Shown: positions 2,326-21,175 of the stretch, in pieces
How positions within the stretch are numbered: the first letter of the stretch is position 1
Layout: every line of letters starts with the position of its first letter
NCBI GenBank assembly: GCA_031274075.1
Contig: JAISQQ010000369.1
Span: 1 to 25,587 of the forward strand
From: Accumulibacter sp.
GTDB lineage: Bacteria > Pseudomonadota > Gammaproteobacteria > Burkholderiales > Rhodocyclaceae
Reading direction: 5' to 3'
Length of the DNA: 25,587 nucleotides
Made by a program: the position numbers and the translations under genes
Notes under the pieces: generated by a model
The model's input: the letters and a program-made list of their open reading frames with translations, nothing else
What the model was told of the DNA's origin: nothing
Databases searched by the model: none

Positions 2326-2428
2326 CGCCAAACCCGCTCCGGCCGGGGACCCCCGTCCGCGAGAAAGCCGGGAGCCGGCCCCGGCCTGAGAATTGCCCAC
2401 CGATGGCCCGCCCGCCGCGCCGGGGAAG

Positions 2429-2914
2429 TCAGGGCGCATTGCGGATTTCGATGCGTCCGAGCGCATCGCCGACGATATCGAGGGACTGCGTACCGGCGGT
2501 CAGGGTCAGCGTAAACGCCTCGGCCAGGCCGCCGAACGAGAAAACGAGCCGTTCCCCGAGCGGCCGCGAGGCGCCGTTGACGTAAAGGGCGCTGAGCGAG
2601 ACGCCCTCCGCCAGGCGCCCAGGGGAAACGGCATCGGCGTCGGACAGCGCCACCCAGGCGTCGCGCTCGCGGTGCGCCGCCCAGAACTGGAATCCCTGTC
2701 CATCGCTGGAAAACGCCAGCGATTGTCCGCGCATCACCGCCTCGTCGCGGGCGGCTTCAAGGCGGCCCGCGAGCATCTCGCCGGCCAGGCGCAAGCGCCG
2801 GCCATCGGAAAAATCGAGCTTGATCATCGCCACGCCCAGGGCGATCGCCGCGATGGCGCAGGCGACGATGATCTCGATCAGGGTAAACCCCCACACCCGG
2901 CGCCGACCATTCAT
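2429..2914 (-). CDS. gspH: T2SS minor pseudopilin GspH
   Basis: GspH is a minor pseudopilin joining the tip complex to the GspG shaft. The 161-residue protein begins MNGRRRVWG|FTLIEIIVACAIAAIALG with cleavage site, Glu +5 and N-terminal helix. The C-terminal half has the GspH/FimT-type beta-rich pattern. The Shine-Dalgarno GGAG lies 7 nt before the ATG on the minus strand, so the start is secure. Repeat B1 lies between it and gspG. Confidence 0.92.
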   Translation of the reverse strand: MNGRRRVWGFTLIEIIVACAIAAIALGVAMIKLDFSDGRRLRLAGEMLAGRLEAARDEAVMRGQSLAFSSDGQGFQFWAAHRERDAWVALSDADAVSPGRLAEGVSLSALYVNGASRPLGERLVFSFGGLAEAFTLTLTAGTQSLDIVGDALGRIEIRNAP

Positions 2915-2930
2915 TCACATACTCCAATCA

Positions 2931-3022
2931 GAAGACAGAGGACAGAGGACAGAAGACAGTAATATTTGCGGGCGCTTCGCGCCCGGTAGTTAACTGTCCT
3001 CTGTCTTCTGTCCTCTGTCCTC
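2931..3022. repeat. Family B heptamer hairpin element, copy B1 (gspG-gspH spacer)
   Basis: Left arm 2931-2960 consists of 7-bp units GACAGAG/GACAGAA. Right arm 2993-3022 is its inverted counterpart (CTGTCCT/CTGTCTT units), with only a few mismatches over 30 bp. Between the arms is the short palindrome GGGCGCTTCGCGCCC at about 2970-2984. The whole element would fold into one long hairpin in the operon mRNA. Related copies are at 9285-9373, 9529-9561 and 22617-22674. Confidence 0.85.
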
Positions 3023-3028
3023 CGAAAC

Positions 3029-3484
3029 TCACATCCACGACCCGATATCCGCGTCGTACCCTTCGCCGCCCTGCTGCCCGTCGGCGCCGTAGCTCATCAC
3101 GTCGATCTCGCTCTTCAAGCCGGGATAGAGGTAGAGGTAGTCGTGTCCCCAGGGGTCCTTCGGCGCTTTTTCCAGGTAGCCGCCATTCTTCCAGTTGGCC
3201 GGTACCGGTTCCGACGCCGGCTTTTCCAGGAGCGCCTTCAAGCCCTGCTCGGTGGTCGGATAACGGCCGTTGTCCAGCTTGTACAGCTTGAGCGCGGCGA
3301 TCAGCGTGCCGATGTCCTGCCTGGCGGCGACTACCCGCGCCTCGTTCGGACGGTCGATGATCTTGGGCACGATCAGCGCGCCGAGAATCGCCAGAATGGA
3401 AACGACGACGAGGATCTCGATCAGCGTGAAGCCCGCCGCGCCGCGCCGCGCCGCCGGATGCCTCCGGATCGCGTCTGTTTTCAT
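3029..3484 (-). CDS. gspG: T2SS major pseudopilin GspG
   Basis: GspG is the main subunit of the T2SS pseudopilus. The 151-residue protein shows the prepilin site AAG|FTLIEILVVVSILAILGAL, then the highly conserved segments VPKIIDRPNEARVVAARQDI, DNGRYPTTEQGL, PKDPWG, and the C-terminal YGADGQQGGEGYDADIGSW, which carries the calcium-binding loop of GspG. The start is put at ATG 3484 (MKTDAIRRHPAARRGAAG), which gives a normal basic leader. The frame is open upstream to ATG 3616, which overlaps the gspF stop as ATGA, and ATG 3595 has a better Shine-Dalgarno (AAGGAG). A leader of about 55 residues is therefore possible but unlikely to be a working prepilin leader. Confidence 0.95.
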   Translation of the reverse strand: MKTDAIRRHPAARRGAAGFTLIEILVVVSILAILGALIVPKIIDRPNEARVVAARQDIGTLIAALKLYKLDNGRYPTTEQGLKALLEKPASEPVPANWKNGGYLEKAPKDPWGHDYLYLYPGLKSEIDVMSYGADGQQGGEGYDADIGSWM

Positions 3485-3595
3485 CAAAAACCGACTCCGG
3501 TTGGAAACCTCCCCCTTCAGGGGAACAATCTTGCACGGGAGGGGCGTAAGCCCTTCCGTGCTTTCGTCCGGCCTGCCGGACGTGGATTGAAACAT
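3485..3595. repeat. Palindromic spacer between gspF and gspG, kept open in the gspG frame
   Basis: On the plus strand it holds three inverted repeats in a row: CCCCTTCAGGGG (about 3512-3523), GCACGGGAGGGGCG with its partner ending CCTTCCGTGC (about 3534-3562), and GTCCGGCCTGCCGGAC (about 3567-3582). It has the look of a mosaic repeat, but I see no second full copy in this window. It has no in-frame stop in the gspG frame, so either an in-frame leader extension or a plain spacer is possible. Confidence 0.5.
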
Positions 3596-3612
3596 GATGG
3601 AAGCTCCTTGAT

Positions 3613-4815
3613 TCATTTGACGAACTGGTTGATTTCAAAGACCGGCAGCAGGATGGCGAGCACGATGAACAAGACCACGCCCCCCATGAGCAGGACGACG
3701 GCCGGCCCGAGCAGGGTGGTAAACGCCTCGATGCGCCGGGACAGCTCGCGCGAGAGTTCCTGCGCCGCCCGTTCGAGCATGCGGTCGAGGCGGCCGGTGG
3801 CCTCGCCGCTGGCGGTCAGGTGGATGAGGATGGGCGGGAACTGGCGCGTCATCGCCAGCGCCCGCGACAGGCCCATGCCCTCGCGCACCTGCGCGGCGGC
3901 GGCATTGGCCGCCGCGCGCTGCACCTGGTTGCTCATCACCCCTTCCGCCGCGGCCAGCGCGGACAAAAGCGGCACGCCGCTGCCGACCAGGATGGCCAGG
4001 GTGCTGGAAAAGCGCGCCGTGTTGGCGGCGCGTTCGAAGTGGCCGAAAAGCGGCAGATCGAGGCGCAGGGCGTGCACCCGCAGGCGAAAAGCCTCGCCGC
4101 GCATGGCCGTGGCGAAAAACGCCGCCGCGATCACCGCCGCCGCCAGCAGCCACAGTCCCCAGTCGCCGACGAAGGCGCTGATCGCCAGCAGTATGCGGGT
4201 CATCAGCGGCAAGGTCTGGCGCGCGCCCTGGAACACCTGCACCATCTGCGGCACCACCCAGGCCAGCATGCCGACGATGACCAGCGCCGAGACCACGAAG
4301 ACGACCGCCGGATAAATGAACGCCAGCGCCACCTTGGAAATGAGCTCGGCGCGCTCTTCCAGGTAAACGGCGAGCCGCTGCATGACGCCGGCGAGGCGTC
4401 CGGACTCCTCGCCCGCCTTGACCAGCGTCGGGTAGAACGACGGAAACGCACGCGGCAGCGCGACCATCGCCGCGGAAACCGAAAGGCCGCTGGCGATGTC
4501 GCCGCGCAGCACGGCGATCAGGCGTTTTTCGCGCTCGTTGTCCGACTGGTCCGCCAGCACCGTCAGCGCCTCGTCCACGGTCAGGCCGGCGTCGAGCAGG
4601 GCCGAGAGCTGGCGCGAAAAGCGCGTCAGCAGCGAGCTCCCCAGGCGCAGCCGCGAACGCTCCGCCGAACCGCTCTTTTGCGCGTCGATCTCGGCGGCGA
4701 GCAGGCCGCGTTCCCTGAGCGCGGCCCTCGCCTGCCGGGCGCTCTCGGCCTCGAGCGTTCCCTTGACGGGACGCCCGCCGGCAAGCGGAATGGCGGTGTA
4801 ATGGAATTCAGGCAA
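3613..4815 (-). CDS. gspF: T2SS inner-membrane platform protein GspF
   Basis: GspF is the polytopic inner-membrane protein that, with GspL and the ATPase GspE, assembles the pseudopilus. The 400-residue protein has the two repeated GspF/PilC cytoplasmic domains (about residues 65-185 and 268-390). Each has an F(S/A)..L..L...G motif: TRFSRQLSALLDAGLTVDEA and ARFSSTLAILVGSGVPLLSA. Three hydrophobic segments follow the usual order, ending FIVLAILLPVFEINQFVK. The start is placed at TTG 4815 (LPEFHYTAIPLAGG), preceded by GAGGG at 5 nt. This matches the family start (M-P-x-F-x-Y-x-A), and the upstream ATG (4905) would add an unrelated tail. It opens the F-K half operon. Its upstream region is shared with the divergent GH28 gene. 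Confidence 0.94.
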   Translation of the reverse strand: MPEFHYTAIPLAGGRPVKGTLEAESARQARAALRERGLLAAEIDAQKSGSAERSRLRLGSSLLTRFSRQLSALLDAGLTVDEALTVLADQSDNEREKRLIAVLRGDIASGLSVSAAMVALPRAFPSFYPTLVKAGEESGRLAGVMQRLAVYLEERAELISKVALAFIYPAVVFVVSALVIVGMLAWVVPQMVQVFQGARQTLPLMTRILLAISAFVGDWGLWLLAAAVIAAAFFATAMRGEAFRLRVHALRLDLPLFGHFERAANTARFSSTLAILVGSGVPLLSALAAAEGVMSNQVQRAAANAAAAQVREGMGLSRALAMTRQFPPILIHLTASGEATGRLDRMLERAAQELSRELSRRIEAFTTLLGPAVVLLMGGVVLFIVLAILLPVFEINQFVK

Positions 4816-4948
4816 GGAACCCTCGTGTTTTCGCAAGCGTGGCCGGTACGGCAAGAACCAGCCAGGACGCCCGATATTACCCCAACAGAAACCCCGGATC
4901 GACAAACCGGCGCTTTTGACCCATACCGGATGAGCATGGCCCCATTGG

Positions 4949-5112: not shown

Positions 5113-7496
5113 ATGTCAGCGCGAAATCGTATCGTTAGTTGGTCAACCTGGGGATTGCTGCTGCTCGCGGCAGGACTGATCCCCGCCTGCGGCGGTGGCG
5201 GCGGCGGTAGCAGCAGCGGATCGGATTCCCCCCCCCCCCCGAAATAACTGAACCGGAAATACCCCTGGCCACGGGCCACGGGCTTGACGTACTACCCGAA
5301 GCAAAAGGACCTTTCTTCGACATCACGGTCTATGGCGCGGTTCCGTATGGCGACGCCACTGTCAACACGCTCGCTATCAACAGCGCCATCGACGCGGCGG
5401 CAAGGATGGGCGGCGGCACGGTGGTCATCCCGCCTGGAAGATTCAAGGTCTGTTCGATCCACCTGAAGAGCAACGTCGGCATCCACTTCACGAGCACCGA
5501 TTCGGTGCTACAGGCCGGCGGGTTCAACGCGGCCACCGGCGGCGCGGAATGTATCTATGACAACCCCGAGAACAACCTGTGGATCGGCATCCAGGATTTC
5601 GGGCACAGCCACTTCAAGAACAGCATGATATGGGGCATCGATGTCAAGAACATCCTGATTTCCGGCCCCGGTCTCATCGAGGGCGGTTTCGTCGACATCA
5701 ACACCGGCAGCGTGGTCGAGGTGTTGCAACGGTCCGATAAATCGGAAATGTCGAACCGCACCGAGGAATTTCCGGTTACATGGTCCGCAACGAACGGCGC
5801 GAACAAGGCGATCGCGCTGTTCCGCTCCGAGAATATCGTCATGCGCGACTTCAAGATAAGCATGGGCGGGCACTTTGGCATCATCGGCACCGAAGTGGTT
5901 GGCTGGACGATGGACAACCTGGTGATCGACGGCCCCCGCGATGCGCTGGACATCGACTCCTCGCAGGACGTGACGGTGCGCAACTCGGTCTTCAACGCGC
6001 CACGGGACGACGCCTTCGTGATCAAGGGCTCCTTCGGCGGCGGTCGCTTTTTCCCCGTCAAAAACATATTGGTCGAAAACTGCACGATCAGCGGCTATGA
6101 CATGGGCTCCGTTCTGTCCGGCGCCAAAACCACGTACTGGGCGCAGGGAAATGGCCCTTTCGGACGTTTCAAGCTCGGCACGGAAAGCACCAACGGCTTT
6201 GACACTGTCACCGCCCGCAACCTGACCTTCGAGCATTCGCGCGGTTACGTGCTGGAATCGGTGGACGGCGCAGAACTGAAGAACATGGTGTTTGTCGACT
6301 CGGTGATGCGGGACGTCATCAGCTCGCCCATCTTCGTCCGTCTGGGTGACCGCGCCCGCGCGCCGGTCACGGGCATACTCACCGACGAAACCTATCCGAG
6401 TTCAGATGATAATCGGAGAGGCCCGGACATTCGGCTCGACGATCAAAAGTTTGTTATGCCGAACCTACCGAAGTACGGCAATTTCCCGCCCATCCGCTAT
6501 ATTCCGTCCTACAATAAGAACTATGCGCCAACGATCGGCGGCAGCGTCGTCCCCGGCATCACCATGGGTACCGTCACCGTCGTCAACCAGACGACGCCCA
6601 CGCGGCTCAACCCGGTCTCGCCGTACCCGAACGACCCGCGCTACGCCAACGCGATCGCCGTGCCGATAGCCAAGGTGTATAACATCAAGATCGACAACAT
6701 CAAGATCACCGACGTTGACCCGCGCCATCCGATTATGATCGCCGGCCTGGTGGACAACCCGGTCGAGAACGTCAGCATCAGCAACGTCAGCGTCGAGTAC
6801 CGGGGCGGGCTGAAGATGGAACATGCCGTCGAGCAGCGTTGGCTCCAAAGCTATACTGACGTCCCAATCTACGGCTCGCCTGGGGTGACGCAGAATCAAA
6901 TGGTCTTCTGGAACCGCGGCACTACGGACGAGACAGGGCTGCCGCGAATCTATTGGGATCCCACGGCCAATGCCGGCGCGGGTGGCTGGAAAGACGATCC
7001 GTACAATATTCCGGAAGCGCCGAGGGTGTATCCCGAGACCAGTAACTTTGGCACGCTGCCTGCCTACGGTCTCTGGGCGCGTCACGTGAAAGGACTCAAG
7101 GTCGACAAGGTCCAGTTCAGCTTCACGACCGAGGACGAGCGGCCCGCCGTGGTCCTGGACGACGTGGATACGGCCAGCTTCACGAACTTCTCGGCGCAGG
7201 TGAAAAGCGGCACGCCGGTGTTCGTGACCGTGACCCACACGAAGAAGCGCCCGCCCGTCTTTGAATACGTGCCCGACGAACCCTACAAGACGACGACGGT
7301 CAGCAACATCTCCACGCCAGCGGGCATGACCGTCGAGGAAGTGACGATCGACCGTCCGGAACCCAGTACGCCGCCCGACTCGCTGTACTCGCTGCCGACC
7401 GTGCCGGACGCCACGCATCCGTATTCTTACCCCGTGCCAAATACGTCCTATCCTTTCCCCAGGACAGTCTGGCCGAATATTGAGCCGCCTCAATAA
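5113..7496 (+). CDS. Secreted GH28 polygalacturonase-like lipoprotein, frame broken at a C13 tract (probably phase-variable, OFF)
   Basis: Likely hydrolyses pectic polysaccharide outside the cell. The start ATG 5113 has GGAG at 7 nt. The N-terminus is a lipoprotein signal (WGLLLLAAGLIPAC, Cys26), then G6, SSSGSDSPPPP. At the C13 tract (5228-5240) the frame ends as K-stop after 44 residues. With 11 or 14 C the codons join the frame running from GAA 5241 to 7496, giving about 794 residues. That frame begins EITEPEIPLATG and carries the parallel beta-helix of GH28: GGGTVVIPPGRF, GPGLIEGG, DALDIDSSQDVTV (about 5940-5978) and APRDDAFVIKGSF (about 5997-6035), which supply the catalytic Asp residues. 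The usual Gly-His-Gly motif is replaced by GYDMGS (about 6094). It lies between gspN and gspF on the opposite strand and is probably T2SS cargo. A sequencing error in the tract is the alternative. Confidence 0.8.
5228..5240. repeat. C13 homopolymer tract inside the GH28 lipoprotein gene
   Basis: Thirteen consecutive C encode the Pro linker after the lipidated Cys. The count puts the upstream signal-peptide frame and the downstream enzyme frame out of register; 11 or 14 C would restore it. Tracts of this length are classical slipped-strand mispairing sites. Confidence 0.85.
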
Positions 7497-7670
7497 GCGA
7501 ACGGTCGCGCGCCAGTGGCGCGGCGCGCGACCCGCCATTGGGACACATCGGCACTTTCGAGATCATGACTATCCCTCATAAAAAAGCTCCAATCGGGTAG
7601 AAGGAGAAGATCGCCGGCTCGCCTCTCCGCGGGTCTCCCCCCAGGGCCGGCGTGATTCTCCCGACCCTTG

Positions 7671-7705
7671 GCACCAGCCGTTTCGGCGTCTGGTGCTTTT
7701 TTTTT
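7671..7705 (+). terminator. Rho-independent terminator of the GH28 gene
   Basis: GCACCAG pairs with CTGGTGC around a short GC-rich loop and is followed by nine T. It lies 175 bp after the stop codon. The DNA between (7497-7670) holds a second GC-rich inverted repeat right after the stop (GTCGCGCGCC...GGCGCGCGAC, about 7503-7530) and no gene that I can recognise. Confidence 0.85.
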
Positions 7706-7740
7706 ATGACTATCCAATCAGCGGGCGCGGAGCGGATGAG

Positions 7741-8050
7741 AACCTTTCTCTGGGAGCGCGGAAATGGCGGCGCTTACCGGGCGCTTCGCGCCCGAAAGAA
7801 CACTGACACCTGACATCTGATCCCTGATCCCTGAAACGTAGGGCGGGAAAGCGCAGCGCCTCCCGCCGGGCGTTCTCTCCGGCGGCATCGCCGCCGCGCA
7901 TCGTATTCAGCGGCCTTTGAATCGTGCGGCGCGTTGCGCCGTGAAAAGGACCGGCGGGAGGCGCTGCGCTTTCCCGCCCTACGGTGTGCGCCAACGGTTT
8001 TGCGCCAACGCCCAGGCGGGGCGGGCGCCCCGCGCTCCCAGGGAGAAAGC
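7741..8050. repeat. Composite nested repeat: family C ends enclosing B-like and A elements (copy C2)
   Basis: The outer ends are inverted copies of TTTCTC-CTGGGAGCGCGG (7745 onwards and 8027-8049). Inside lie a GGGCGCTTCGCGCCC hairpin followed by 7-bp CTGACAY/CTGATCC units (7777-7834), then a complete A element (7838-7982). The composite ends 2 bp before the gspN stop codon. This, together with the terminator region, accounts for the gene-free 7497-8052 stretch. Confidence 0.7.
7838..7982. repeat. Family A palindromic element, copy A1
   Basis: 145 bp bounded by GTAGGGCGGGAAAGCGCAGC and its exact inverted copy ending in CCCGCCCTAC, about 33 bp of terminal inverted repeat. The interior contains GGCCTTTGAATCGTGCGGCG. 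Near-identical copies are at 17817-17955 and 18438-18581. No coding capacity. Confidence 0.85.
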
Positions 8051-8052
8051 CT

Positions 8053-8787
8053 CTAAAACCTCACCACGAACCCCTCTCCGGCCTTGGGCAGGGACGCCAG
8101 CAAGGGAGAAAGGCCGGGCAAGGGCGACTGCGGCGCCAGGTTGAGCTGGCCGTTGACTTTGGACTGGCCGGCGTCGAAAGTCCCTTTTCCACTGACCCGC
8201 AGCACGCCGCTGACGGTGGCGAGCTGCCAGTCGCCCCGGCCCGCGCCGTCGGCCTTGCAATCGAGCCGGTAATTGCCCAGATCCCCCTGCGGGTACAGCG
8301 CCGTGAACAGGTGTTCGACCGCCACCGACGCCGCCATCGGCGAACGCCCGCTCAAGTCCAGGTTTTTCGCGCTGACGCGCAGCACGGCGCCCAACTGCGC
8401 CGATTTGAGTTGCGCGTGCAGCGCGGCCAAGGGTTCCAGCGGCAAGGCCACGCTGACCCCGTTCAATTCCACGCCCCCGGGGCGAATCGCCAGTTCGAGC
8501 CGGCTCGTCCGGTCGGCCAGCCGGCCGCCGACCGTCCAGGCCAGCTTCCCTTCCAGCAGCGCCCGCGGCAGGAAGTTCCACGACGCCTGCTCCTGGACGA
8601 GCATGCCGCCCACGCCGACCGCCGAGGCCCGGCCATTCCAGAGGGACCCTTCGACTTCCCTGAGCTGGATTTCCGGCGGCAGGAGCAGCGTCGCCAGACT
8701 CGCCGGCAAACGGACGGCCAGCGCCAGGATGAAGACGCCGGCGACGAGCAGGAGCGTCCGCCACGAGACGGGCAAGCGGCGTTTCAT
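8053..8787 (-). CDS. gspN: T2SS protein GspN
   Basis: GspN is an accessory T2SS protein anchored in the inner membrane with a large periplasmic domain; its exact role is not settled. The 244-residue protein has an N-terminal membrane segment (TLLLVAGVFILALAVRLPASL, residues about 11-31), then the beta-rich periplasmic part with the family-typical segments VEGSLWNGRA, SWNFLPRALLEGKLAWTV and FDAGQSKVNGQLNL. The start ATG overlaps the gspM stop as ATGA (8784-8787). It ends the C-D-E-L-M-N half operon, and composite repeat C2 follows immediately. Confidence 0.9.
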   Translation of the reverse strand: MKRRLPVSWRTLLLVAGVFILALAVRLPASLATLLLPPEIQLREVEGSLWNGRASAVGVGGMLVQEQASWNFLPRALLEGKLAWTVGGRLADRTSRLELAIRPGGVELNGVSVALPLEPLAALHAQLKSAQLGAVLRVSAKNLDLSGRSPMAASVAVEHLFTALYPQGDLGNYRLDCKADGAGRGDWQLATVSGVLRVSGKGTFDAGQSKVNGQLNLAPQSPLPGLSPLLASLPKAGEGFVVRF

Positions 8788-9272
8788 GGCGCGCTCTCCA
8801 GTTCGACGACCACCCGCGCGGTTCCGCTGGCGGAACCGTCGCTCCTCGCGCCGAACACCGCGACGCGCGCGCCCGCCTGCTGGCGCATGGCGTCGAGCAC
8901 GTCCAGCGCCTCCTTCACCGGCATTTCCGGCAGGCGCATCTCGACGCGCGTCGGCGACAAGGCCCGCAGTTCCGCGCTGATCCCGCTTTCGGCAAGCTGG
9001 GCGTACAACACGCTGCGCAGATCCTCGCCACCCGGCCGCGCCGCCGCGTCGGCCACGCTTTTTCCGGCGGACGGCCGCGCGCGCATGCGGTTGAGCAGCA
9101 TCTCCAGTTCGGGAACCCGTTTCTCCAGCGCGGCAATGCGTTGAAACAAGGGCGCGCACACCCCGAACCACAGCGCCAGCAAGGCCACCGCCGCCAGCCA
9201 TGCCGCGAGAATCCGGCGTTCGCGTCCGGAACGCTCCTGCCACCACTGCCCTAATTTCTGCTGGATCGGCAC
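8784..9272 (-). CDS. gspM: T2SS inner-membrane protein GspM
   Basis: GspM is a bitopic protein that binds and stabilises GspL in the inner-membrane platform. The 162-residue protein has a short cytoplasmic start (MPIQQKLGQWWQERSGRERR), one membrane helix (ILAAWLAAVALLALWFGVCAPL, about 21-42), a heptad-like segment and a C-terminal ferredoxin-like domain. Length and topology are typical. It overlaps gspN by 4 bp. A 307-bp repeat-filled spacer separates it from gspL, although gspL and gspM are normally coupled. Confidence 0.9.
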   Translation of the reverse strand: MPIQQKLGQWWQERSGRERRILAAWLAAVALLALWFGVCAPLFQRIAALEKRVPELEMLLNRMRARPSAGKSVADAAARPGGEDLRSVLYAQLAESGISAELRALSPTRVEMRLPEMPVKEALDVLDAMRQQAGARVAVFGARSDGSASGTARVVVELESAP

Positions 9273-9284
9273 GATGCTTATCCA

Positions 9285-9373
9285 GAGGACAGGGGACAGA
9301 GGACAGAAGACAGTAATATTTGCGGGCGCGAAGCGCCCGGTGACTGGACAGTCCTCTGTCCTCTGTCTTCTGA
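9285..9373. repeat. Family B hairpin element, copy B2 (gspL-gspM spacer)
   Basis: GACAGAR heptamer arm at about 9288-9314, a GGGCGCGAAGCGCCC palindrome at 9325-9339, and the inverse CTGTCCT/CTGTCTT arm at about 9350-9373. It shares TAATATTTGCGGGCGC with B1. Confidence 0.8.
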
Positions 9374-9472
9374 GCGCCGGAACGACGCGCTTATGCTTGT
9401 CTCAATGTTCATGCGATAAACTCCTGGAACGATTGCATAACCGCCACCGCCCTTGAAACATGACGGGTCTTC

Positions 9473-9561
9473 GTAGGGCGGATGCCTCCGCCGGTCGTAA
9501 ACCTCCGGCGCAAAGCGCCGCATTTTGGACAGTCCTCTGTCCTCTGTCTTCTGTCTTCTGA
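9473..9561. repeat. Half of an A-type element joined to half of a B element
   Basis: 9473-9527 reads GTAGGGCGGATGCCTCCGCC and then CTCCGGCGCAAAGCGCCGCA, which resembles the first half of the element at 21910-22023. It breaks off into a lone CTGTCCT/CTGTCTT arm of family B (9529-9561). The stretch 9374-9472 between B2 and this chimera shows nothing recognisable. This looks like a repeat that has been cut by, or recombined with, another. Confidence 0.6.
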
Positions 9562-9579
9562 ACACTTGACCCGAACCCC

Positions 9580-10658
9580 CTATTGTTCCCGCTCTAGGCG
9601 GTAGTTGAACTGCGTGAAACCGGGACCGGCCGGCATCTGTTCCGGCTTGCCGAGCGCTTCGAGCGATGACTTGAATTGCGCGGCGTCGCTGTCGGTCAAG
9701 GTCAGGCGCACGCCTGCCTCGCTGACTTCGACGGCGCGCGGCCTGAGTGGAATCTTGAGGCGGGCGGCGAAGGCGACGGCGGTATCGAGCGCGTCGTCCC
9801 GCGCCTGCGTCGATTCGCGCTGCTTGCTTTCCCATTGCAGGATGGGATCGATGATCGGCGTGCCGGGATAGGCGGCGGCGAAGGTCTGCCGGATTTCGTG
9901 CTGCAGGCGCGCCACGCGGTTTTCCAGATGCCGCCAGTGCGCGGCCGTGCCGAGCAGGGCCAGCGCGGCCGAAACGGCCAAGAGCACGCCCGCCGCGCGC
10001 AGCGGCCTCAAATCGAGACGCTGGCTGGCGAAGCGCGCCAGCGCCGCGGGCAGGCCGCGGCAATCGGGCGGGCAAGGCCGGCGCGCGAGGTCTTCGACGC
10101 GCTGGAGCGTTTCTCCGGGCGCGAGCCGCGCCAGCGCCGCTTCGTTGCCGACGATGCCGAACAGCCCGGAAACGGTGCGGAAGATCGTCCCGCCTGCCGC
10201 CGCCGCGTGCACCGCCGCGTCCTCGCGCTCCGGCAGCAGTTCGTACTCCGGGATGAGCCGCGCCGCGTAGTGGCCGGCCGCCGCCAGGCGTTCCAGGGCG
10301 CTTTCGAGCCAGCTCCGGCGGCACACCCAGACGCGCCGCTCGGTTCCCTGCGGCGGGCCGGGCACGGCCAGCGCGTCGTCCCGGTCGCCGAGCAGCCGGT
10401 CTTCGAGCGCCTGCCGCACCAGGGCGTCGAGATGCTTGCCCGCGTTCACCGGCAATTCGAGCCGATGCATCGACACGCGGCAGGCGGGCAGGAGAATTTC
10501 CAGTTCATCCGCCGCCGGCAATTCCGCCAGCGGACTCACCCCGCTCCCGGCCACGGCGTAGCCGGCGGAAAAACCGATCCAGGCCAGTTCTGTCCACGCC
10601 TCGTCGGGCGGCAGGCTGAGGCGCAGGATGGAAAAACGCGGCGCGGCCATGATCGCGC

Positions 10659-10662
<4 letters not shown>
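9580..10662 (-). CDS. gspL: T2SS inner-membrane platform protein GspL
   Basis: GspL links the cytoplasmic ATPase GspE to the platform. The 360-residue protein has the actin-like cytoplasmic domain (about 1-235), one membrane helix (AAGVLLAVSAALALLGTAAHW, about 245-265) and a periplasmic ferredoxin-like domain ending in NYRLEREQ. The start ATG 10662 overlaps the gspE stop as ATGA. ATG 10650 is a possible alternative, because the GGGAGG lies only 1 nt before 10662. gspL here follows gspE directly, whereas most T2SS operons have F to K in between. Confidence 0.9.
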
Positions 10663-12128
<1,466 letters not shown>

Positions 12129-12135
12129 GGCAGGC

Positions 12136-14295
12136 TTATGGCAGGTAGCTGGCGGCGTCCGCGGCGGGGGCCTCGCCGGTCTCCGTCTCCGCCGGCGCAT
12201 CTACCGGCGCCTCCGCCGGCGCGCTTCGCGGCGGCAGTCGCACGGGGGGGTCGCCGTCCGGCGCCGCGAACTTCTCCTGCTCGGCGCGCAGGTATTCGTA
12301 GCGTTCCGACGACAAGCCCTGGCTCGATTTCGCGTCGCGCAGGATGGTCGGGCGCAGGAAGACCATCAGATTGACCCTCGAACGATCGTGTATCTCGTAG
12401 CGGAAAAGACCGCCCATCCAGGGAATGTCGCCCAGCAGCGGCACCTTGAACTTCGATTCGGTCACCTTGTCCTCGATCAGGCCGCCGAGAACGATCGTCT
12501 GGCCGTCGTCGACCAGCACCTTGGTGTCGATCTGGCGGACCTTGGTAGCCAGGCCGGCGCCGCTGGTGTCGACCGAGTTGTCGACGCTCGACACTTCCTG
12601 GGCGACCGTCAGGGTGATCGAACCGCTGTCGGAAATCTGCGGCTTGATCTTGAGCACGATGCCCACGTCCTTGCGCTCGACGGTCTGGAACGGGTTGCTG
12701 GTGCTGCCGGAGACCGTGGTGTAGGAACCGGTCAGGATCGGGATGTTCTGTCCGACCATGATCCGCGCCTCCTCGTTGTCGAGCGTCAGCAGGTTGGGCG
12801 TCGACAGGACGTTGCCGTTGCCGTCGCTCTCCAGCGCCGTGGCCAGCACGCCGAAATTGCCGTTGAACAGTCCGAAACTGAAGGTGGAAGGAATCGACAT
12901 CACCCCCGAGAGATAGCCCGAATACAGCGCGCCGAGGTTGGTCGCCGTCGGGCTGATGTTGGAAACGGCGCCGCCGGACAGCGATCCGTCGGTGCCCGCG
13001 ACGGCCCACTGCACACCCAGTTCCTCGCTCCGGGAGACATTGACCTCGGCGATTAGCGCTTCGATGTAGATCTGCGCCCGGCGCACGTCCAGCTTGTCGA
13101 TCACCGCGCGCAGGTTGTTGTAGACGTGGTCCGGCGCGGTGATCACCAGGGCGTTGGTCGCGGTGTCGGCGCGGATGAGCACCGTGGCGCCGGCGACCTC
13201 GACGCTGACGCCCGCCGCTCGCCGCGCACCGCCGCTGCCCGACTGCGACGCGCCGGTGGACAGCATCGAGGTTTGCGAGCTGGTGCTCGAGGTGGAAGTG
13301 CCGCTGCCGTCCGTTCCGCCGAAACTCGAACCCGAGCCGGTCAGGCCGGAGCTCGAGGAAGAAACGCCGGACCCCGAAAAGCCCGACGAGGAAGCTTCCT
13401 CGCCGCTGCCGGTCAGGATTCCCTTCAGCGTGTCGGCCAACGCCACGGCGTCGGCGTTGCGCAGATAGACCACGTTGATGTTGCTGCCGGACGCCGGCGG
13501 CGTATCGAGGCTGGCGACCAGCGCGCGAATCTGCGCGCCGTGCGCCGCCGCCTGGCTGCGCACCAGGAGCTGGTTGTTGCGCACGTCGGACACGATCACC
13601 GTGCGCTTGACCCCTTCGGGGGTCGGCATCGGCGACGGCGCGCCCTGGACGAAGACCTCGGGCATCAGGCGGCCGATGGTCTGCGCCACGTCCAGCGCGG
13701 ACGCGTAGCGGATGCGGATCGGGAAGATGTCGCTGGCCGCCGGCTGGTCGACGTTGTCGATGATCTGGCCGATGCGCGCCACGTTGTCGGCATAATCGGT
13801 GACCACGATGGTGTTACCGCCGGCGTAGGCGCCGAAGAAATTGTTCGAGGAAACGAGCGGCCGCAGGGACGCCGCCAACTGCGAGGCCGAGGCGTGGGTC
13901 AGCGGAAAGACCTGGGTGACGACGCGGTCCCCGGACGCCCGGCCCTTGCGCGTAAACACCTCCAGCGCCTGGGTCTTGGCGTCGGCGTCCGGCATGATCT
14001 TGACGATGCTGTCGTTTTCCACCGCCGTGATCCCCTGCTGGCGCAGCGCCGAGAGCAGGATCGGAAAGATCAGCGAGCGCGCCACCGGCTGGTTGGAAAT
14101 GATGTTGATCGTGCCCTTGACCTTCGGATCGATGACGAAATTCTTGCCGGTGATGAGGCCCACGGCCTTGACCGTGGACTCGATGTCGGAATTGACGAAA
14201 TTGAGCGTCACCGCGTCGTCCGTCGCCCGCGCCGCCGTCAGGCCGGCCCCGGACAGCGCGATGCACAGCAACACGCGGAGGGAATATTTTTTCAT
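12136..14295 (-). CDS. gspD: T2SS outer-membrane secretin GspD
   Basis: Forms the outer-membrane channel of the T2SS. The 719-residue protein has a Sec signal peptide (MKKYSLRVLLCIALSGAG...ARA), the N0 domain (VTLNFVNSDIESTVKAVG), N1-N3 domains and the secretin core. The core has GQNIPILTGS, QEVSSVDNS and the signature VPLLGDIPWMGGLF. A Ser/Gly/Thr-rich low-complexity insert (about residues 290-345) sits inside the N3 domain loop. The C-terminal tail after residue about 660 is Pro/Ala/Glu-rich. The start ATG overlaps the gspC stop as ATGA. I see no gspS pilotin gene here. Confidence 0.96.
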   Translation of the reverse strand: MKKYSLRVLLCIALSGAGLTAARATDDAVTLNFVNSDIESTVKAVGLITGKNFVIDPKVKGTINIISNQPVARSLIFPILLSALRQQGITAVENDSIVKIMPDADAKTQALEVFTRKGRASGDRVVTQVFPLTHASASQLAASLRPLVSSNNFFGAYAGGNTIVVTDYADNVARIGQIIDNVDQPAASDIFPIRIRYASALDVAQTIGRLMPEVFVQGAPSPMPTPEGVKRTVIVSDVRNNQLLVRSQAAAHGAQIRALVASLDTPPASGSNINVVYLRNADAVALADTLKGILTGSGEEASSSGFSGSGVSSSSSGLTGSGSSFGGTDGSGTSTSSTSSQTSMLSTGASQSGSGGARRAAGVSVEVAGATVLIRADTATNALVITAPDHVYNNLRAVIDKLDVRRAQIYIEALIAEVNVSRSEELGVQWAVAGTDGSLSGGAVSNISPTATNLGALYSGYLSGVMSIPSTFSFGLFNGNFGVLATALESDGNGNVLSTPNLLTLDNEEARIMVGQNIPILTGSYTTVSGSTSNPFQTVERKDVGIVLKIKPQISDSGSITLTVAQEVSSVDNSVDTSGAGLATKVRQIDTKVLVDDGQTIVLGGLIEDKVTESKFKVPLLGDIPWMGGLFRYEIHDRSRVNLMVFLRPTILRDAKSSQGLSSERYEYLRAEQEKFAAPDGDPPVRLPPRSAPAEAPVDAPAETETGEAPAADAASYLP

Positions 14296-15146
14296 GGCTG
14301 GATATCGTAGCGTTGGGTCATGGAAACGCCACCGCGGATGAGTTCGAGCGTCACCGAGGGACTCTGGCCGAAGTGGAAAAAAACGAGCGAAATGTCGGCG
14401 AGCTGGGCGAGCGGACGCTGGTTGACCCGCTTGAGCACGTCGCCGTCCTTGAGCTGCAGCAACTGCGCAAACTGTTGCGCCGCCACCTGGTCGATACGGA
14501 TGCCGCCGTCCGGCGCGTTGGACAGCCCCTTGTCCCAGCCGGCGACGTTGCCGCCGCGCATCACCGCGATCATCTGCCCGTGGGTTATGCGGATCGCGTT
14601 CGCCGGCGGCGCGGCCGCCGACGTGGCAGTGGCAGCTCTTGGCGGGGTGCCGCCACCGGCGCTGGCATTGCTGGCATTGGCGCCGGAAATCATCGCGCGC
14701 GCTTCCGCCTGCGGCAACTTGATCTCTTGCCGGGCGCCGCCGAGTTCTATCGTGGCGCCGTCGGGCGCGACCGAAAGCAGGCGGCTCCCGGAATCGACGG
14801 AATCTCCCGTGCGCACCGCGATGCCCTTGCCGTCGCTGCCCTTGAGCAGGGCCACGCCGTCCCGCCGGCCGGCGATCACCGCCATCAGCGCATAGTCGCT
14901 CGCCGCCGGCGCGTCGGCCGCGGTTTCGCTCCCGAACCAGCCGAGGAAGGCGTCGCGGGATTCGGCATGCAGCGGCGAAGGCCGGGGCGGCGTCGGCATC
15001 GGTCCATCCGTCGCCGGAGCGAACAGCCACCACGCCAGCCCGGCCGCCTGCCAGCACAGCAGCACCACCGCGGCGCGCTCGAACCACGGGAACAATCTTT
15101 CCGCCAGGAAGCGCGCGGCACCCGGAAAACCCCCCGGCCAAACCAT
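14292..15146 (-). CDS. gspC: T2SS protein GspC
   Basis: GspC connects the inner-membrane platform to the secretin and takes part in substrate recognition. The 284-residue protein has a short cytoplasmic start, one membrane helix (AAVVLLCWQAAGLAWWLF, about 25-42), the periplasmic homology region (YALMAVIAGRRDGVALLK and following), a Ala/Gly/Ser/Thr-rich linker, and a C-terminal PDZ-like domain (LLQLKDGDVLKRVNQRPL). Start ATG 15146 (MVWPGGFPGAARF) is supported by GGGAG 7 nt upstream; the longer frame above it lacks family resemblance. It is the first gene of the C-D-E-L-M-N operon. Confidence 0.92.
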   Translation of the reverse strand: MVWPGGFPGAARFLAERLFPWFERAAVVLLCWQAAGLAWWLFAPATDGPMPTPPRPSPLHAESRDAFLGWFGSETAADAPAASDYALMAVIAGRRDGVALLKGSDGKGIAVRTGDSVDSGSRLLSVAPDGATIELGGARQEIKLPQAEARAMISGANASNASAGGGTPPRAATATSAAAPPANAIRITHGQMIAVMRGGNVAGWDKGLSNAPDGGIRIDQVAAQQFAQLLQLKDGDVLKRVNQRPLAQLADISLVFFHFGQSPSVTLELIRGGVSMTQRYDIQP

Positions 15147-15256
15147 CAGCGCGCTCCCGCCGAAAAACCCCGGCCCCAGCCGGCCAAAACCCTCCCATCG
15201 ACCACCTGCCACCCCTCTCCCATGACCCGTTTTCGCCGCGCAAGCGATCACGCCCG

Positions 15257-15340
15257 CTACGGCGCGTCCCAATTCAAAATACCCATTGTGCCATATCCGG
15301 AATCGGCGTCCCCAAGATTTTTGAGCTTCGCCTGGGACAT
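15257..15340 (-). CDS. Possible small ORF upstream of gspC
   Basis: 27 codons (MSQAKLKNLGDADSGYG...NWDAP) with GGAG 8 nt before the ATG, 110 bp upstream of gspC on the same strand. No family recognised. It could be a leader, a remnant of a lost gene, or chance. The rest of the 15147-15668 spacer holds a B-like repeat, an operator-like palindrome and the promoter of the PL10 gene. Confidence 0.2.
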   Translation of the reverse strand: MSQAKLKNLGDADSGYGTMGILNWDAP

Positions 15341-15387
15341 CGCACGATCTCCATGAGTCAACCCGTGCGCGCGGAAACGGCACCGCC

Positions 15388-15447
15388 TATCGGGCGCTTC
15401 GCGCCCGCAAGAATTACTGATACCTGACATCTGACACCTGATCCCTG
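15388..15447. repeat. B-like element: GGGCGC hairpin plus CTGACAY heptamers
   Basis: GGGCGCTTCGCGCCC followed by CTGATAC, CTGACAT, CTGACAC, CTGATCC units in a 7-bp period. It matches the block at 7777-7834. A short AACGCGCCGTACGATTCAAAGG just after it resembles the interior of the A elements. Confidence 0.65.
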
Positions 15448-15523
15448 GCACGGGAAACGCGCCGTACGATTCAAAGGCCGTTGTATCGGAAACACAAGCT
15501 CCGTTCATTCGGAAACGAAAAAA

Positions 15524-15538
15524 TGGAATGCCGTTCCA
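15524..15538. promoter_or_regulatory. Operator-like palindrome TGGAA-N5-TTCCA upstream of the PL10 gene
   Basis: TGGAATGCCGTTCCA is a 5+5+5 inverted repeat flanked by A-runs, ending 7 bp before the -35 box. The arms and spacing equal the known IclR operator form (TGGAA-N5-TTCCA). An IclR-family gene begins at 25458. The link between them is inference. Confidence 0.45.
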
Positions 15539-15545
15539 AAAAATA

Positions 15546-15574
15546 TTGAACCCTTATCGTCGTTGTCGTATATT
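15546..15574 (+). promoter_or_regulatory. Sigma-70 promoter of the PL10 pectate lyase gene
   Basis: -35 TTGAAC (15546-15551), 17-bp spacer, -10 TATATT (15569-15574). The start of transcription would be near 15581, leaving an 88-nt leader before the ATG. Confidence 0.7.
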
Positions 15575-15668
15575 ACTCGCCAGCCAGGTCTCGACCCTGT
15601 GCCTTGCCTGGTGAATCCGCCATCCGGTATGGCGCTATCCGACTACACACAGAAATGAGGGAAAAATC

Positions 15669-17720
15669 ATGAAACGCAGAACTTTTCTCGGTTCATCCAT
15701 CCTGGTACCCATTGCGATGACTACGGCCGCCTGCGGGGGGGGGGGGGGGGGTGGCGATGATGCGCCGCCCGTCGTCGATCCGACCCAGCCCATCGATCCC
15801 GATCCGGTAAGGGCCGCGGCCAAGGACGCCATGCGGCGCGCCGTCACCTACATGGACGAGAACGTCTCGTACCGGGGCGGGTATGTATGGAATTACCTGG
15901 ATTCCGACAGGACCCAGTGCTGGGGTGAAATGCAAGCCTACCCCACGATGTGCTGGATGCAGTCCGCCACCCCACAAGTGGGTGACGCCATCCTCGACGC
16001 CTACCACGCCACGGGCGACGAAACCTTCTACAAGGCGGCCGAGCACACCGCGCTGGCACTGGTTGAAGCGCAGCACCCCGCAGGCGGCTGGAATTACATC
16101 TACGACTTCGCCGGCGAAGACTCGCTGAAGCGCTGGTACGAAACGATCGGCATCAACGGCTGGCGGCTGGAGGAATTCCAGCACTATTACGGCAACGCCA
16201 CTTTCGACGACGCCACCACCGCCAATGCCTCGCAATTCATGCTGCGCATGTACTTGGAAAAGCAAGACCCGCGTTTCAAGGCTTCGCTCGACAAGGCCAT
16301 CGCCTTCGTGCTCGACTCACAATTCAAAACCGGCATCGCCGCCGGCGGCTGGTCACAGCGCTTCCCGAGGGCGTACAACGCCACCCAGGCGATGCCCGCG
16401 CCCAACTGGCCGCCGACAGGGCCGAACTGGACGCATCTCCAGGCCGGAAACCAGAACGGCGATTTTCTTTCCCACGGCCCGGGCGGACTTGGTATCGGCT
16501 ACACCGGCATCTTCTGCGGCATGGAAGACCGCGACTATACGAACTTCGTGACCTTCAACGACGACGTGATCACAGAGAACATCAAGTTCCTGATGCTCTG
16601 CGTCCTCGGCCTCGGGGACATGAGCCTCAAAGCGTCCGCCGTGGCCGCCATGGACTGCGTGCACCGGATCATGTACCGCTACGATCCCGCAGTTGATGGC
16701 GCTACCGTTACAAGGTTTGGTGAGGTTATTCCCTGCGTGAAGCAGGCGGGCTGGGGCTTGCAGCACCTCTCGGCGGATACGCTGGACGCCTACGGCGTGC
16801 TGCGTCCCGCCGGCGCGCCGGCCGGCGCGCGCGGCTATGAGTCGCGGGGGCTGTGTCCGGCCGTCACAGCAGCCAACATCGACCTGCTGTTCGACTACTT
16901 CCGGCTGACCGGCGACAAGAAGTATCTCTACGGCTTGGAGGACGCGCTCGACTGGCTGGATAGCTGCCCGTTGAGAAACGATCAGAGGTCAATCACTTCC
17001 TCTAGACCGGACGGCGACCCGGAAAGCATATTGGGCAACACGCACCCACGGGTCGTGGAACTGGGTACCAACCGGCCGCGCTTCCCGCATCGCTATGGCA
17101 CCAACATCTGGAACGGCGCATATTACTTCGATTACGACTGGCGCAACACGCCCAGCCATTACGGCGCATCAGCAAACGCCGCCACCGGCGGGCGGCGTAC
17201 CACGCTGGACCGGTTGAAAAATCTGCCGAACGTGGATATCGCCGCGATGGTGGCCAATTCACCGCTCAACGTCACGGGCAAGCGGGCTCTGCCCAGATAC
17301 TTCTCGGTCGGAGGCGAAGTGAATTTCTCGCATCTTTGGGAAAACGCGGTGAAGGGATCACCGGCCAGGACCGAGGAGCAGACCAATACGACGGTCAGCG
17401 ACCTGGGCGACAGGAACTACTGGGTTGCCACCATCACCAACTATACCAATCCCTATACGCGGAACGGAGACAGCACGCCGTACCTCGGCAAGGAGTACAT
17501 GAGCCGGCACGTGGGCGACATCACTGATACCTCGCCCTACAGTTCGGCGGCGGCCCAGATGCCCGCAATGCCGCCTTACACCGACGCGCCCAAGCCCGTT
17601 CAGACGGGCATCAACACCACTGGACAAGGCGGCAGCCCCAGCTTCATCAGCCAGTTGAACAACCTCACGGCCTTTATAGAGCCCATCACAGCAGTAAGCG
17701 ATCCGACATACAAGAGCTAG
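15669..17720 (+). CDS. Secreted PL10 pectate lyase lipoprotein (phase-variable, ON)
   Basis: Predicted to cleave polygalacturonate by beta-elimination outside the cell. ATG 15669 follows GAGG by 8 nt. The signal MKRRTFLGSSILVPIAMTTAAC combines a twin-arginine motif (R3-R4, RRTFLG) with a lipobox Cys22, so Tat export of a folded lipoprotein and hand-over to the T2SS is likely. Next comes a G-rich linker encoded by G17. The body (about residues 45-600) matches family 10 pectate lyases: CWGEMQAYPTMCWMQSATP, PAGGWNYIYDF, AAGGWSQRFPRAYN (about 224), and ELGTNRPRFPHRYGT (464-478), which corresponds to the conserved active-site Arg segment of PL10. The family call is strong; the residue assignment is tentative. 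It is divergent from gspC, which supports T2SS cargo status. Confidence 0.9.
   Translation: MKRRTFLGSSILVPIAMTTAACGGGGGGGDDAPPVVDPTQPIDPDPVRAAAKDAMRRAVTYMDENVSYRGGYVWNYLDSDRTQCWGEMQAYPTMCWMQSATPQVGDAILDAYHATGDETFYKAAEHTALALVEAQHPAGGWNYIYDFAGEDSLKRWYETIGINGWRLEEFQHYYGNATFDDATTANASQFMLRMYLEKQDPRFKASLDKAIAFVLDSQFKTGIAAGGWSQRFPRAYNATQAMPAPNWPPTGPNWTHLQAGNQNGDFLSHGPGGLGIGYTGIFCGMEDRDYTNFVTFNDDVITENIKFLMLCVLGLGDMSLKASAVAAMDCVHRIMYRYDPAVDGATVTRFGEVIPCVKQAGWGLQHLSADTLDAYGVLRPAGAPAGARGYESRGLCPAVTAANIDLLFDYFRLTGDKKYLYGLEDALDWLDSCPLRNDQRSITSSRPDGDPESILGNTHPRVVELGTNRPRFPHRYGTNIWNGAYYFDYDWRNTPSHYGASANAATGGRRTTLDRLKNLPNVDIAAMVANSPLNVTGKRALPRYFSVGGEVNFSHLWENAVKGSPARTEEQTNTTVSDLGDRNYWVATITNYTNPYTRNGDSTPYLGKEYMSRHVGDITDTSPYSSAAAQMPAMPPYTDAPKPVQTGINTTGQGGSPSFISQLNNLTAFIEPITAVSDPTYKS
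15735..15751. repeat. G17 homopolymer tract inside the PL10 lipoprotein gene
   Basis: Seventeen G follow the lipidated Cys codon (TGC 15732-15734). With 17 the frame is open. Loss or gain of one or two G would truncate the protein just after the lipobox, while steps of three only change linker length. Confidence 0.9.
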
Positions 17721-18283: not shown

Positions 18284-18284
18284 A

Positions 18285-19028: not shown

Positions 19029-21128
19029 TCAGTTCGACGATTGCTGCCGCAGGAACCAGTCGCGCGCCATGACGCCCAAGTTGGGATAGTTGCTGAAAAA
19101 GCCGTCCAAGCCCATGTCCAGGTAGTTGTAATACTCCTCGGCGGCGGCGAAGGCATCGACCTTGTTGAAAGTCCAGGCATGAACCAGCAAACCCGCGTCG
19201 TGAGCCTGCTTCACGAACTCCTTGCTCATTGGCAGACCGAGACTAGCCGTGTCGATGGAAAGACTGATGCCATCGGCAACGGATTTGACGGTAGCCAGAT
19301 TCACAATGGGAAATCCATAATTGGGCACGGTGCCATCAACGGGCAGAGTCGTCTGGGAGGTCAAAACTATCTTGGCGATGCCGTTGTCCATGATCGGCAA
19401 GCCCAGCAATATCTGCGGGATGTTCTTGCCTTGCGCCACTTGTTTGTCGTGCAGGCTCTTGATCGTGTCCCCGCTGAACGACTGGATGATGACCGGGACG
19501 TCGGTCGAGGGGAGGCCCTTGGTGGCGAGAGTAGCCAGGATGCGGTCTTCCATCAACGGGTCCGCCTGCTTGGCTTCAGGATAGATGCCAATCGGGCGGT
19601 CATACTTCGCACTCTGCGCCTTGGCAAAATCCACCACTTCGTCGAAGGTTGGAATCCTGAAACTGTTGTAGCTGGTATCGCTCGGCGTGTAGCCGGGGTA
19701 GCTGGTTTCCGCAGTACCGGCGTCCGAATTAGTGACGGTCAGCTCTCTGATTTCGGCTAGGGTGAAATCGCTAACGTAATAGCAAACCCCATCACGATCA
19801 GTATCGTCGCTAGGGTTAATGCAAGACCCTCCACGGTTACTGAACCTGCTAGTGGTAACGTTTGTGTTCCCATCGAGCGTGGTGTCGTGCATGACCACCA
19901 GAACGCCGTCACTGGTCGTTTGCAGATCGGGCTCGATGAAATCGACTCCCATCTTGATCGCCAGTTCGTAAGCGGCAAACGTGTGCTCGGGCAGATAACC
20001 ACTGGCGCCCCGGTGGGAAGTGACCTGCGGGCCATCGGAGACGAATTTGTGGATAGGCTCCTTGAACTGGTCGCGCGCCAGGACCGCCAGATCGGGATAG
20101 TTGCTGAACATGCCGTCCATGCCCATGTCGAGATACTCGCGGTATTCCTTTTGCGCCGCGATGGCGTCGACCTGGCTGAACGTCCAGCCATGCACCCTCA
20201 GCCCGGCGGCGTGCGCCTGTTCGATGAATTCGCGCGTCACCGGAAAACCGTCGGTATAGTAGGGATCGCCCAAACCGACGCTGACGCCGTCGGCGATTTT
20301 CTTCACTTCGGAGAAATCGAGCGCTTCTATGGAATCGTCGCTCCAGCCTACGAGGTCGCGCCAAACCCCCATCTTGGGAACACCATCTTTCATCACCGCC
20401 ACGCCCAGCAGGATCTGCGGAACCTTTGTGCCCTGCGCCTGCTGCTTGCCGTGCAGGCTGCGAATCGTTTCTTCGCTGAACGACTGGATGAATACCCGGC
20501 TGTCGGGCTTGTTCATGCCATGGGCGGACAAGGTGGCCAGGATGCCGTCTTCCATCTCCGGATCGGCCTGCTTGGCTTCGGGGTAGATGCCGATTTCGCG
20601 GCCCACCTTCGCGCTCTGCGCCTTGGCGAATTCGATCACTTCATCGAAGGTCGGAATCCCGAAACCGTTGTAGCGGGCATCGCTCGGCGTGTAGCCGGGA
20701 TAGCTGCCTTTTGCGGTGCCGGCGTCCGAATAAGTGACGGTCAGCGTCCTGATTTCGGCCAAGGTAAAATCGCTCACCGGATAGTTGTTGTGGCCATTGC
20801 GCTTGGCGAAGAGATCGGCGACATTGGTGTTCTGATCGAGCGTGTCGTCGTGCATCGCCACCAGATGACCGTCCTTGGTGAATTGCAGATCGGGCTCGAT
20901 GTAGTCGGCGCCCATCTGGATCGCCAGTTCATACGCGGCGAGCGTATGCTCGGGCAGATAACCGCTGGCGCCCCGGTGGGAAATCACAATGGGTCCGCCA
21001 ACCAGACCGGGGTTGACCGGATCGGGTGTCGACGGCTGATCCGAATCGCCATGACCGCCGCCACCGCCGCCGCAAGCCGACAGCACCAGCGCCGTCAGCG
21101 ATAACATCAAGAATTTCCTGTAACTCAT
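19029..21128 (-). CDS. Tandem-domain glycerophosphodiester phosphodiesterase lipoprotein
   Basis: Predicted to hydrolyse glycerophosphodiesters to an alcohol and glycerol-3-phosphate at the cell surface or in the periplasm. The 699-residue protein has a lipoprotein signal (MSYRKFLMLSLTALVLSAC, Cys19), a G6 linker and two full GDPD domains (about 47-355 and 366-695). Each carries HRGASGYLPEHT, IEPDLQ and MHD, the catalytic and metal-binding motifs of the family. The repeats are very similar in protein and DNA. Domain 2 has an extra, less GC-rich loop (DDTDRDGVC; 19790-19860) that resembles a calcium-binding Asp loop. Start ATG 21128 is chosen because it begins the signal peptide; it overlaps the stop of a 16-codon leader ORF as ATGA. 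A Pho-box-like promoter lies upstream. The C-G6 tether matches the two pectinases, so T2SS surface export is possible. Confidence 0.92.
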   Translation of the reverse strand: MSYRKFLMLSLTALVLSACGGGGGGHGDSDQPSTPDPVNPGLVGGPIVISHRGASGYLPEHTLAAYELAIQMGADYIEPDLQFTKDGHLVAMHDDTLDQNTNVADLFAKRNGHNNYPVSDFTLAEIRTLTVTYSDAGTAKGSYPGYTPSDARYNGFGIPTFDEVIEFAKAQSAKVGREIGIYPEAKQADPEMEDGILATLSAHGMNKPDSRVFIQSFSEETIRSLHGKQQAQGTKVPQILLGVAVMKDGVPKMGVWRDLVGWSDDSIEALDFSEVKKIADGVSVGLGDPYYTDGFPVTREFIEQAHAAGLRVHGWTFSQVDAIAAQKEYREYLDMGMDGMFSNYPDLAVLARDQFKEPIHKFVSDGPQVTSHRGASGYLPEHTFAAYELAIKMGVDFIEPDLQTTSDGVLVVMHDTTLDGNTNVTTSRFSNRGGSCINPSDDTDRDGVCYYVSDFTLAEIRELTVTNSDAGTAETSYPGYTPSDTSYNSFRIPTFDEVVDFAKAQSAKYDRPIGIYPEAKQADPLMEDRILATLATKGLPSTDVPVIIQSFSGDTIKSLHDKQVAQGKNIPQILLGLPIMDNGIAKIVLTSQTTLPVDGTVPNYGFPIVNLATVKSVADGISLSIDTASLGLPMSKEFVKQAHDAGLLVHAWTFNKVDAFAAAEEYYNYLDMGLDGFFSNYPNLGVMARDWFLRQQSSN

Positions 21129-21175
21129 ATGACCCCCCAAAAAGATACGAATGCCGTTGCGAAAATTTCCATCAT
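21125..21175 (-). CDS. 16-codon leader ORF coupled to the GDPD gene
   Basis: AGGAG lies 5 nt before ATG 21175 and 8 nt before a second in-frame ATG, but only 1 nt before the in-frame GDPD ATG at 21179. The leader MMEIFATAFVSFWGVI ends at TGA 21125-21127, which overlaps the GDPD start (ATGA). The GDPD gene itself has only a G6 run as a ribosome site, so translation may depend on the leader. Confidence 0.45.
   Translation of the reverse strand: MMEIFATAFVSFWGVI

Follow-up and report, generated by a model that had tools for sequence, protein, structure and literature searches.

Phase variation of the kind proposed here is known mainly from the surface proteins of pathogens, and has been studied mostly as a means of evading immunity or phage. 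The closest functional precedent is NalP of Neisseria, a secreted protease that an intragenic poly-C tract (6–15) sets ON or OFF by reading frame, as confirmed by immunoblot (PMC3723659). Autotransporters also belong to the Neisseria phasome, as do fetA, which serves iron acquisition, and enzymes of glycan synthesis, for instance lgtA (PMC5953494). In Bordetella, the G/C tracts of fim3, bapC and tcfA are polymorphic between species, and several such tracts are tied to envelope proteins, exported proteins or lipoproteins (PMC1891110), while a poly(A) tract in the 5' coding region of Listeria inlA undergoes frequent reversible frameshifts (PMC2831843). Helicobacter bizzozeronii carries a polysaccharide lyase and 43 contingency genes, although the accessible portion of its description does not state that the lyase is one of them. 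Here, we describe a window of 25,587 nucleotides, one contig (C66) of the 3.18 Mb genome (G000; 474 contigs, 88.7% complete) of an Accumulibacter sp., in which two genes for predicted lipid-tethered enzymes, one GH28-like and one PL10-like, lie beside genes of a type II secretion system (T2SS) and carry long mononucleotide runs, C13 and G17 respectively.

These loci differ from the described systems in several ways. NalP cuts proteins and comes from a human commensal and pathogen, whereas here the enzymes resemble plant-type polysaccharide cutters and belong to an Accumulibacter-like bacterium, the run lies at or just past the predicted lipid tether, and switching is proposed from sequence. 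Bordetella is likewise a Betaproteobacterium with G/C tracts, but no polysaccharide-degrading enzyme appears among its tract genes in the accessible part of that report. The tracts of Listeria inlA and other described 5'-end homopolymers are of A/T, whereas those of the present genome are of G/C, 12–21 long in its clean tracts (defined below). Mononucleotide phase variation has long been known; its occurrence in an Accumulibacter-like lineage seems to be new, and so does its position, at or close to the lipid tether of secreted enzymes of a type that degrades plant polymers. Among the portion of the open-access literature matches that we examined, no report was found of phase variation in Accumulibacter or of phase-variable pectinases. 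On the evidence that follows, we consider it likely that both runs are simple-sequence contingency loci, at which slipped-strand mispairing in a G/C run switches the frame of a tethered enzyme.

Both runs lie where the first-pass annotation had placed them and have the effects that it described (Table 1): the C13 run breaks the GH28-like frame after 44 codons, and the G17 run leaves the PL10 open reading frame (ORF) intact. The start codon of the GH28-like gene is preceded by AGGAGA, which by eye resembles a ribosome-binding site. Its signal ends in a cysteine that, like that of the PL10 protein, we take to be lipidated under the lipobox rule; six Gly codons of mixed GGC and GGT, followed by the residues SSSGSDS, separate this cysteine from the run, beyond which 751 codons of the enzyme frame follow without a stop. 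The signal of the PL10 protein is presumably Tat-like, going by its motif. All lipoboxes (IPAC in the GH28-like protein, LASC in the GH3 protein described below, and TAAC in the PL10 protein, which is atypical at −3) were judged by reading the sequence only. The claim that the two runs sit at the same point holds only approximately: the G run adjoins the Cys codon, but the C run starts 13 codons further on and encodes Pro rather than Gly. In the case of the pectinase labels, PL10 stood, with a PF09492 match of 51.4 bits (cut-off 22; residues 176–235 only) and profile matches to 1r76 (E 1.1e-4) and 1gxm (E 2.5e-4). The PF00295 (GH28) match of the other enzyme reached 19.5 bits, under the cut-off of 22.9, so we call it GH28-like rather than GH28, though a Beta_helix match exceeds its own cut-off and the family profile matches solved polygalacturonases (5olp, E 4.3e-20; exopolygalacturonase 2uve, E 3e-13). 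Both enzymes would probably act on pectin.

Table 1. Coordinates of the main features of the window (position 1 is its first letter).
Feature	Position	Strand	Details
GH28-like signal/lipobox frame	5113..5247	+	44 codons; ATG 5113; ...GLIPAC-GGGGGG-SSSGSDS-PPPPK; stop TAA 5245-5247
Predicted lipidated Cys, GH28-like protein	5188..5190	+	lipobox I-P-A-C
C13 mononucleotide run	5228..5240	+	Pro codons; signal and enzyme out of frame with each other
GH28-like right-handed beta-helix enzyme frame	5241..7496	+	intact; ORF listed from ATG 5406
PL10-like pectate lyase	15669..17720	+	683 codons, in frame; Tat-like lipoprotein signal MKRRTFL...TTAAC
Predicted lipidated Cys, PL10 protein	15732..15734	+	lipobox by reading
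G17 mononucleotide run	15735..15751	+	Gly codons; directly 3' of Cys codon
T2SS genes gspK, J, I, H, G, F	207..4905	-	K, G, F from Pfam matches; H, I, J from gene order and reading alone
T2SS genes gspN, M, L, E, D, C	8053..15383	-	N, L, E, D by Pfam; M by order only
GDPD lipoprotein, two domains	19029..21179	-	Cys-Gly6 tether in mixed codons; in-window control without run

The lengths of the two runs are not due to chance. Elsewhere in the window the longest G/C run is 7, and Markov models of orders 1, 3 and 5, trained without the two runs and used to simulate 400 windows each (1,200 in all), produced no run of at least 13. Both runs are intragenic and of lengths that are hypermutable in other systems. 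Nor did we find a single fixed in-frame length when tract length and frame were compared across relatives, a comparison on which the first-pass annotation had made its proposal depend. Among 28 genomes of the genus, the GH28-like gene occurs in the present genome and in its sister genome G030 only (79% identical), and the two orthologs differ in both respects: the run is C13 and out of frame in the former, and C16, at the corresponding place and in frame, in the latter (L056). The bases on either side of the run have diverged between the two genomes.

A third tethered enzyme of the same genome has a run at its lipobox. This GH3 lipoprotein on contig C22 has an 832-codon frame (Pfam GH3 N, GH3 C and Fn3-like), and its signal ends in LASC with G13 directly after the Cys; the signal frame stops after 52 codons, leaving signal and enzyme out of frame. 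Its orthologs in G030 (71% identical) and G011 (69%, first 236 residues) are in frame and encode their Cys-Gly tether with mixed codons, so the simplest reading is that the pure G run arose within a tether that was already there. For PL10, Cys is followed by Gly in most, not all, of about 40 homolog N-termini inspected. The Cys-Gly tether is shared with other lipoproteins of this genome, in which the Gly codons inspected are mixed, and relative to such tethers the pure G run is, judging from the sequences compared, a derived feature. When five other Gly-tethered lipoproteins of this genome were collected with one lipobox pattern, none had a run in its tether. The resulting contrast (a run in 3/3 carbohydrate enzymes versus 0/5 others; Fisher p 0.018) is post hoc and spans differing search routes, and we do not rely on it. 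Across 399 genomes of the order, a motif of Ala or Ser, Cys and at least 12 G occurred in two, namely the present genome (twice) and G236; the motif misses Gly-Cys lipoboxes, such as that of a G23 case at a G030 contig end. The G236 gene (L274; G236:C10:141033), from another family of the order, is lipoprotein-like and out of frame, with G14 right after the lipobox Cys, and is an independent case of a run at a tether.

The enzyme parts of all three genes are under purifying selection, with dN/dS between the present genome and G030 of about 0.29 for the GH28-like, 0.41 for the PL10 and 0.35 for the GH3 enzyme. This argues against the out-of-frame genes being old pseudogenes. We rejected decay as an old event, given the open enzyme frames and this selection, although pairwise dN/dS is compatible with very recent decay. 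Under the proposed switch, hypermutable G/C tracts would sit in the tether-coding region of secreted polysaccharide-degrading lipoproteins, and replication slippage would alter the run length, presumably at rates that allow reversible switching of expression. Lengths that place signal and enzyme in one frame would yield a lipid-anchored enzyme (ON), while at other lengths only a short peptide of signal and Gly residues would be made and no enzyme exported (OFF); as assembled, PL10 would be ON, and the GH28-like and GH3 enzymes OFF. If each enzyme switches independently, a clonal population should hold several combinations, and mixed populations of degraders and non-degraders would be expected. 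An RNA polymerase or ribosome that slips on the run could instead give enough in-frame product in every cell, making for leaky expression with no heritable switch. Transcriptional slippage can arise at long homopolymers, and the open, conserved enzyme frames of the OFF genes would fit with it. Such slippage is best known on A/T runs, however, and has no need of the differing DNA lengths found between sister species, and we regard it as highly improbable here.

Turning to the distribution of long runs, we found that the present genome and its clade are rich in them. The genome has 12 runs of at least 12 G, four of them on the low-complexity ends of contigs C196 and C463 and a fifth where C82 ends; among 79 further genomes from the order, 58 lacked such runs and 21 had one to four. 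Within the genus, 15 of the 28 genomes had none, three had one and ten had 4–35. Of the 142 hits in the genus, 109 fell in catalogued stretches and 33, largely near contig ends, were left out; the 109 comprise 80 clean tracts, 20 within 150 bases of a contig end and nine of low complexity. Counts may be low, since some contigs end in such runs. The 20 tracts near contig ends, together with the stutter of long G/C runs in short reads, would fit with an assembly or sequencing error, in which case the cell would carry in-frame runs and the OFF states would be length errors. Such errors would account at most for the frame, and not for the runs themselves, the run of the ortholog or the clade-wide excess, and of the three enzyme genes two are affected by a frame break; we consider this explanation very unlikely. 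In a MutS tree of 21 genus genomes (G004 partial), the Accumulibacter record UBA704 and two Dechloromonas, the tract-rich G000, G004, G012, G030, G031, G033 and G034 formed one group (support 95/96), outside which lay all 13 tract-poor genomes and a sole tract-rich one, G007, for which four of eight hits were in catalogued stretches, two of those being of low complexity. G001 and G011, without a mutS match, are unplaced. The MutS of UBA704 showed no difference from that of tract-poor G022.

The genes beside these tracts are in many cases of kinds found in phasomes. For each clean tract, the best neighbouring open piece was chosen by a script on length and GC3, so that strand or frame is possibly wrong for some, and searched with Pfam. 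Pieces of surface or surface-glycan genes numbered 27 of 80, or 27 of the 44 with a family, in a grouping of our own and as raw counts; there were also methyltransferases (3), other families (14) and pieces with no family (36). The 27 include the GH3 enzyme, the two GH28-like genes (present genome and G030) and PL10, besides autotransporters or repeats (7), TonB receptors or plugs (6), acyltransferase-3 (2) and glycosyltransferases (2), with one each of UDP-sugar dehydrogenase, polysaccharide synthesis protein, AlgX/DHHW, hexapeptide transferase, DegT-type aminotransferase and Kdo kinase. Surface genes of such kinds compose known phasomes, according to the accessible portions of two accounts (PMC5953494, PMC3234257). 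The three enzymes would then belong, with autotransporters, TonB receptors and surface-glycan genes, to a phasome of this Accumulibacter lineage.

Two further tracts of the present genome stand out. A C14 (L066; G000:C183:14431-14444) about 175 bases upstream of the start of a Gly-tethered lipoprotein with a PKD domain is a possible phase-variable site of the promoter type. A C21 (L067; G000:C368:8716-8736) interrupts a TonB-receptor gene after its signal-like start and before its plug domain, and leaves this gene out of frame.

Several observations weigh against the proposed frame switch. Run lengths come from an assembly of 474 contigs and may be off by one, and the database protein for the G030 GH28-like gene (P0122) begins past the run, though the contig reads through. 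The PL10 relative of G030 has no Cys, and only G11 followed by GGA codons, in frame. Among the first 40 neighbouring pieces, which were picked by eye, 22 of 31 with a family were of surface genes, and the remaining 38 gave 3 of 11. Tracts also lie in or beside the non-surface genes pdxA, a CNNM/CorC transporter, glyS and a GGDEF/EAL gene, and CstA and HD-domain genes are also among the later 38. Finally, in a search of the 28 genus genomes, mutL was not found in the present genome (88.7% complete), G031 or G004, and mutS was not found in G001 or G011 and only partially in G004. Since mutL was not found in these three genomes, raised slippage without an adaptive role is possible, and because of the gaps in both genes mutational pressure may add to, or partly replace, selection. 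Taken furthest, this would be neutral expansion, in which weak mismatch repair or polymerase bias lengthens G runs everywhere, Gly/Pro linkers tolerate their growth and the frame breaks are no switch. The gaps in both genes fit with this, as do the 14 of 80 clean tracts beside other families and the 36 beside pieces without one. At least one of mutS and mutL is missing, though, in 5 of 9 tract-rich genomes versus 5 of 19 others (Fisher p 0.21, with G007 counted among the others and matches under the family cut-off taken as missing), G030, G012, G033 and G034 are tract-rich and have both genes, and no run occurs in the tethers of the five other Gly-tethered lipoproteins. Taken together, these data make neutral expansion unlikely. 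Loss of mismatch repair as the sole or general cause was rejected on account of the same four genomes, but may apply to the present genome.

The proposal that phase variation affects a set of pectinases exported by the adjacent T2SS thus fared differently in its two parts. The wealth of long G runs in genome and clade, the phasome-type classes of many neighbouring genes and the third tethered enzyme bear on its first part favourably, while for export it is adjacency only that suggests a route for both enzymes. The T2SS genes occupy 0.2–15.4 kb on the minus strand, with gspC at 26.7 bits, just below its Pfam cut-off of 27; on the opposite, plus strand, the GH28-like gene separates gspF from gspN, and PL10 is divergent from gspC. 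This adjacency is only partly kept, since in G030 the PL10 relative is about 1.3 kb from a gspC-like stretch, and no T2SS match was found within the 13 kb fetched around the GH28-like gene. That PL10 relative (L079; G030:C141) lacks, through loss, both the Cys of the lipobox and an Arg of its Tat-like signal, and may be released instead of anchored.

If the switch operates as proposed, heritable random switching of several anchored carbohydrate-degrading enzymes would offer cells that break down biomass a genetic route to division of labour or to cheating, and an Accumulibacter-like lineage would have acquired its own phasome. A stronger version, which we put forward tentatively and with some doubt, is that in one lineage of Accumulibacter relatives the GH28-like, PL10 and GH3 enzymes are turned on and off by a heritable, combinatorial lottery, each switching independently via pure G/C runs evolved in ancestral Gly/Pro tethers. 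One clone would then contain producers and non-producers of a public good, and the enzymes would stand beside a phasome that covers adhesins, receptors and glycan genes. In genes of this type, automated gene calls may place the start within the enzyme and so miss the signal.

Other features of the window were also seen. Among the relatives of its proteins are some from Candidatus Accumulibacter sp., and we take the genus to be Accumulibacter-like. A literature search for a termite habitat of Accumulibacter or Rhodocyclales gave nothing useful. Intergenic repeats that are related to each other and have hairpin-like inverted arms lie at 7756-7994, 15369-15486 and 17813-18593, several copies being about 87–100% alike; they flank the PL10 gene on both sides and follow closely after the GH28-like gene, as if the two enzyme genes had been inserted or moved between them. 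In the GDPD lipoprotein, the two GDPD domains stand in tandem and stem from a duplication of about 1 kb within the gene, 72–83% alike in DNA, and an RlaP-family nucleotidyltransferase of the RNA repair pathway (PF10127) is encoded at 23416-24243 on the plus strand.

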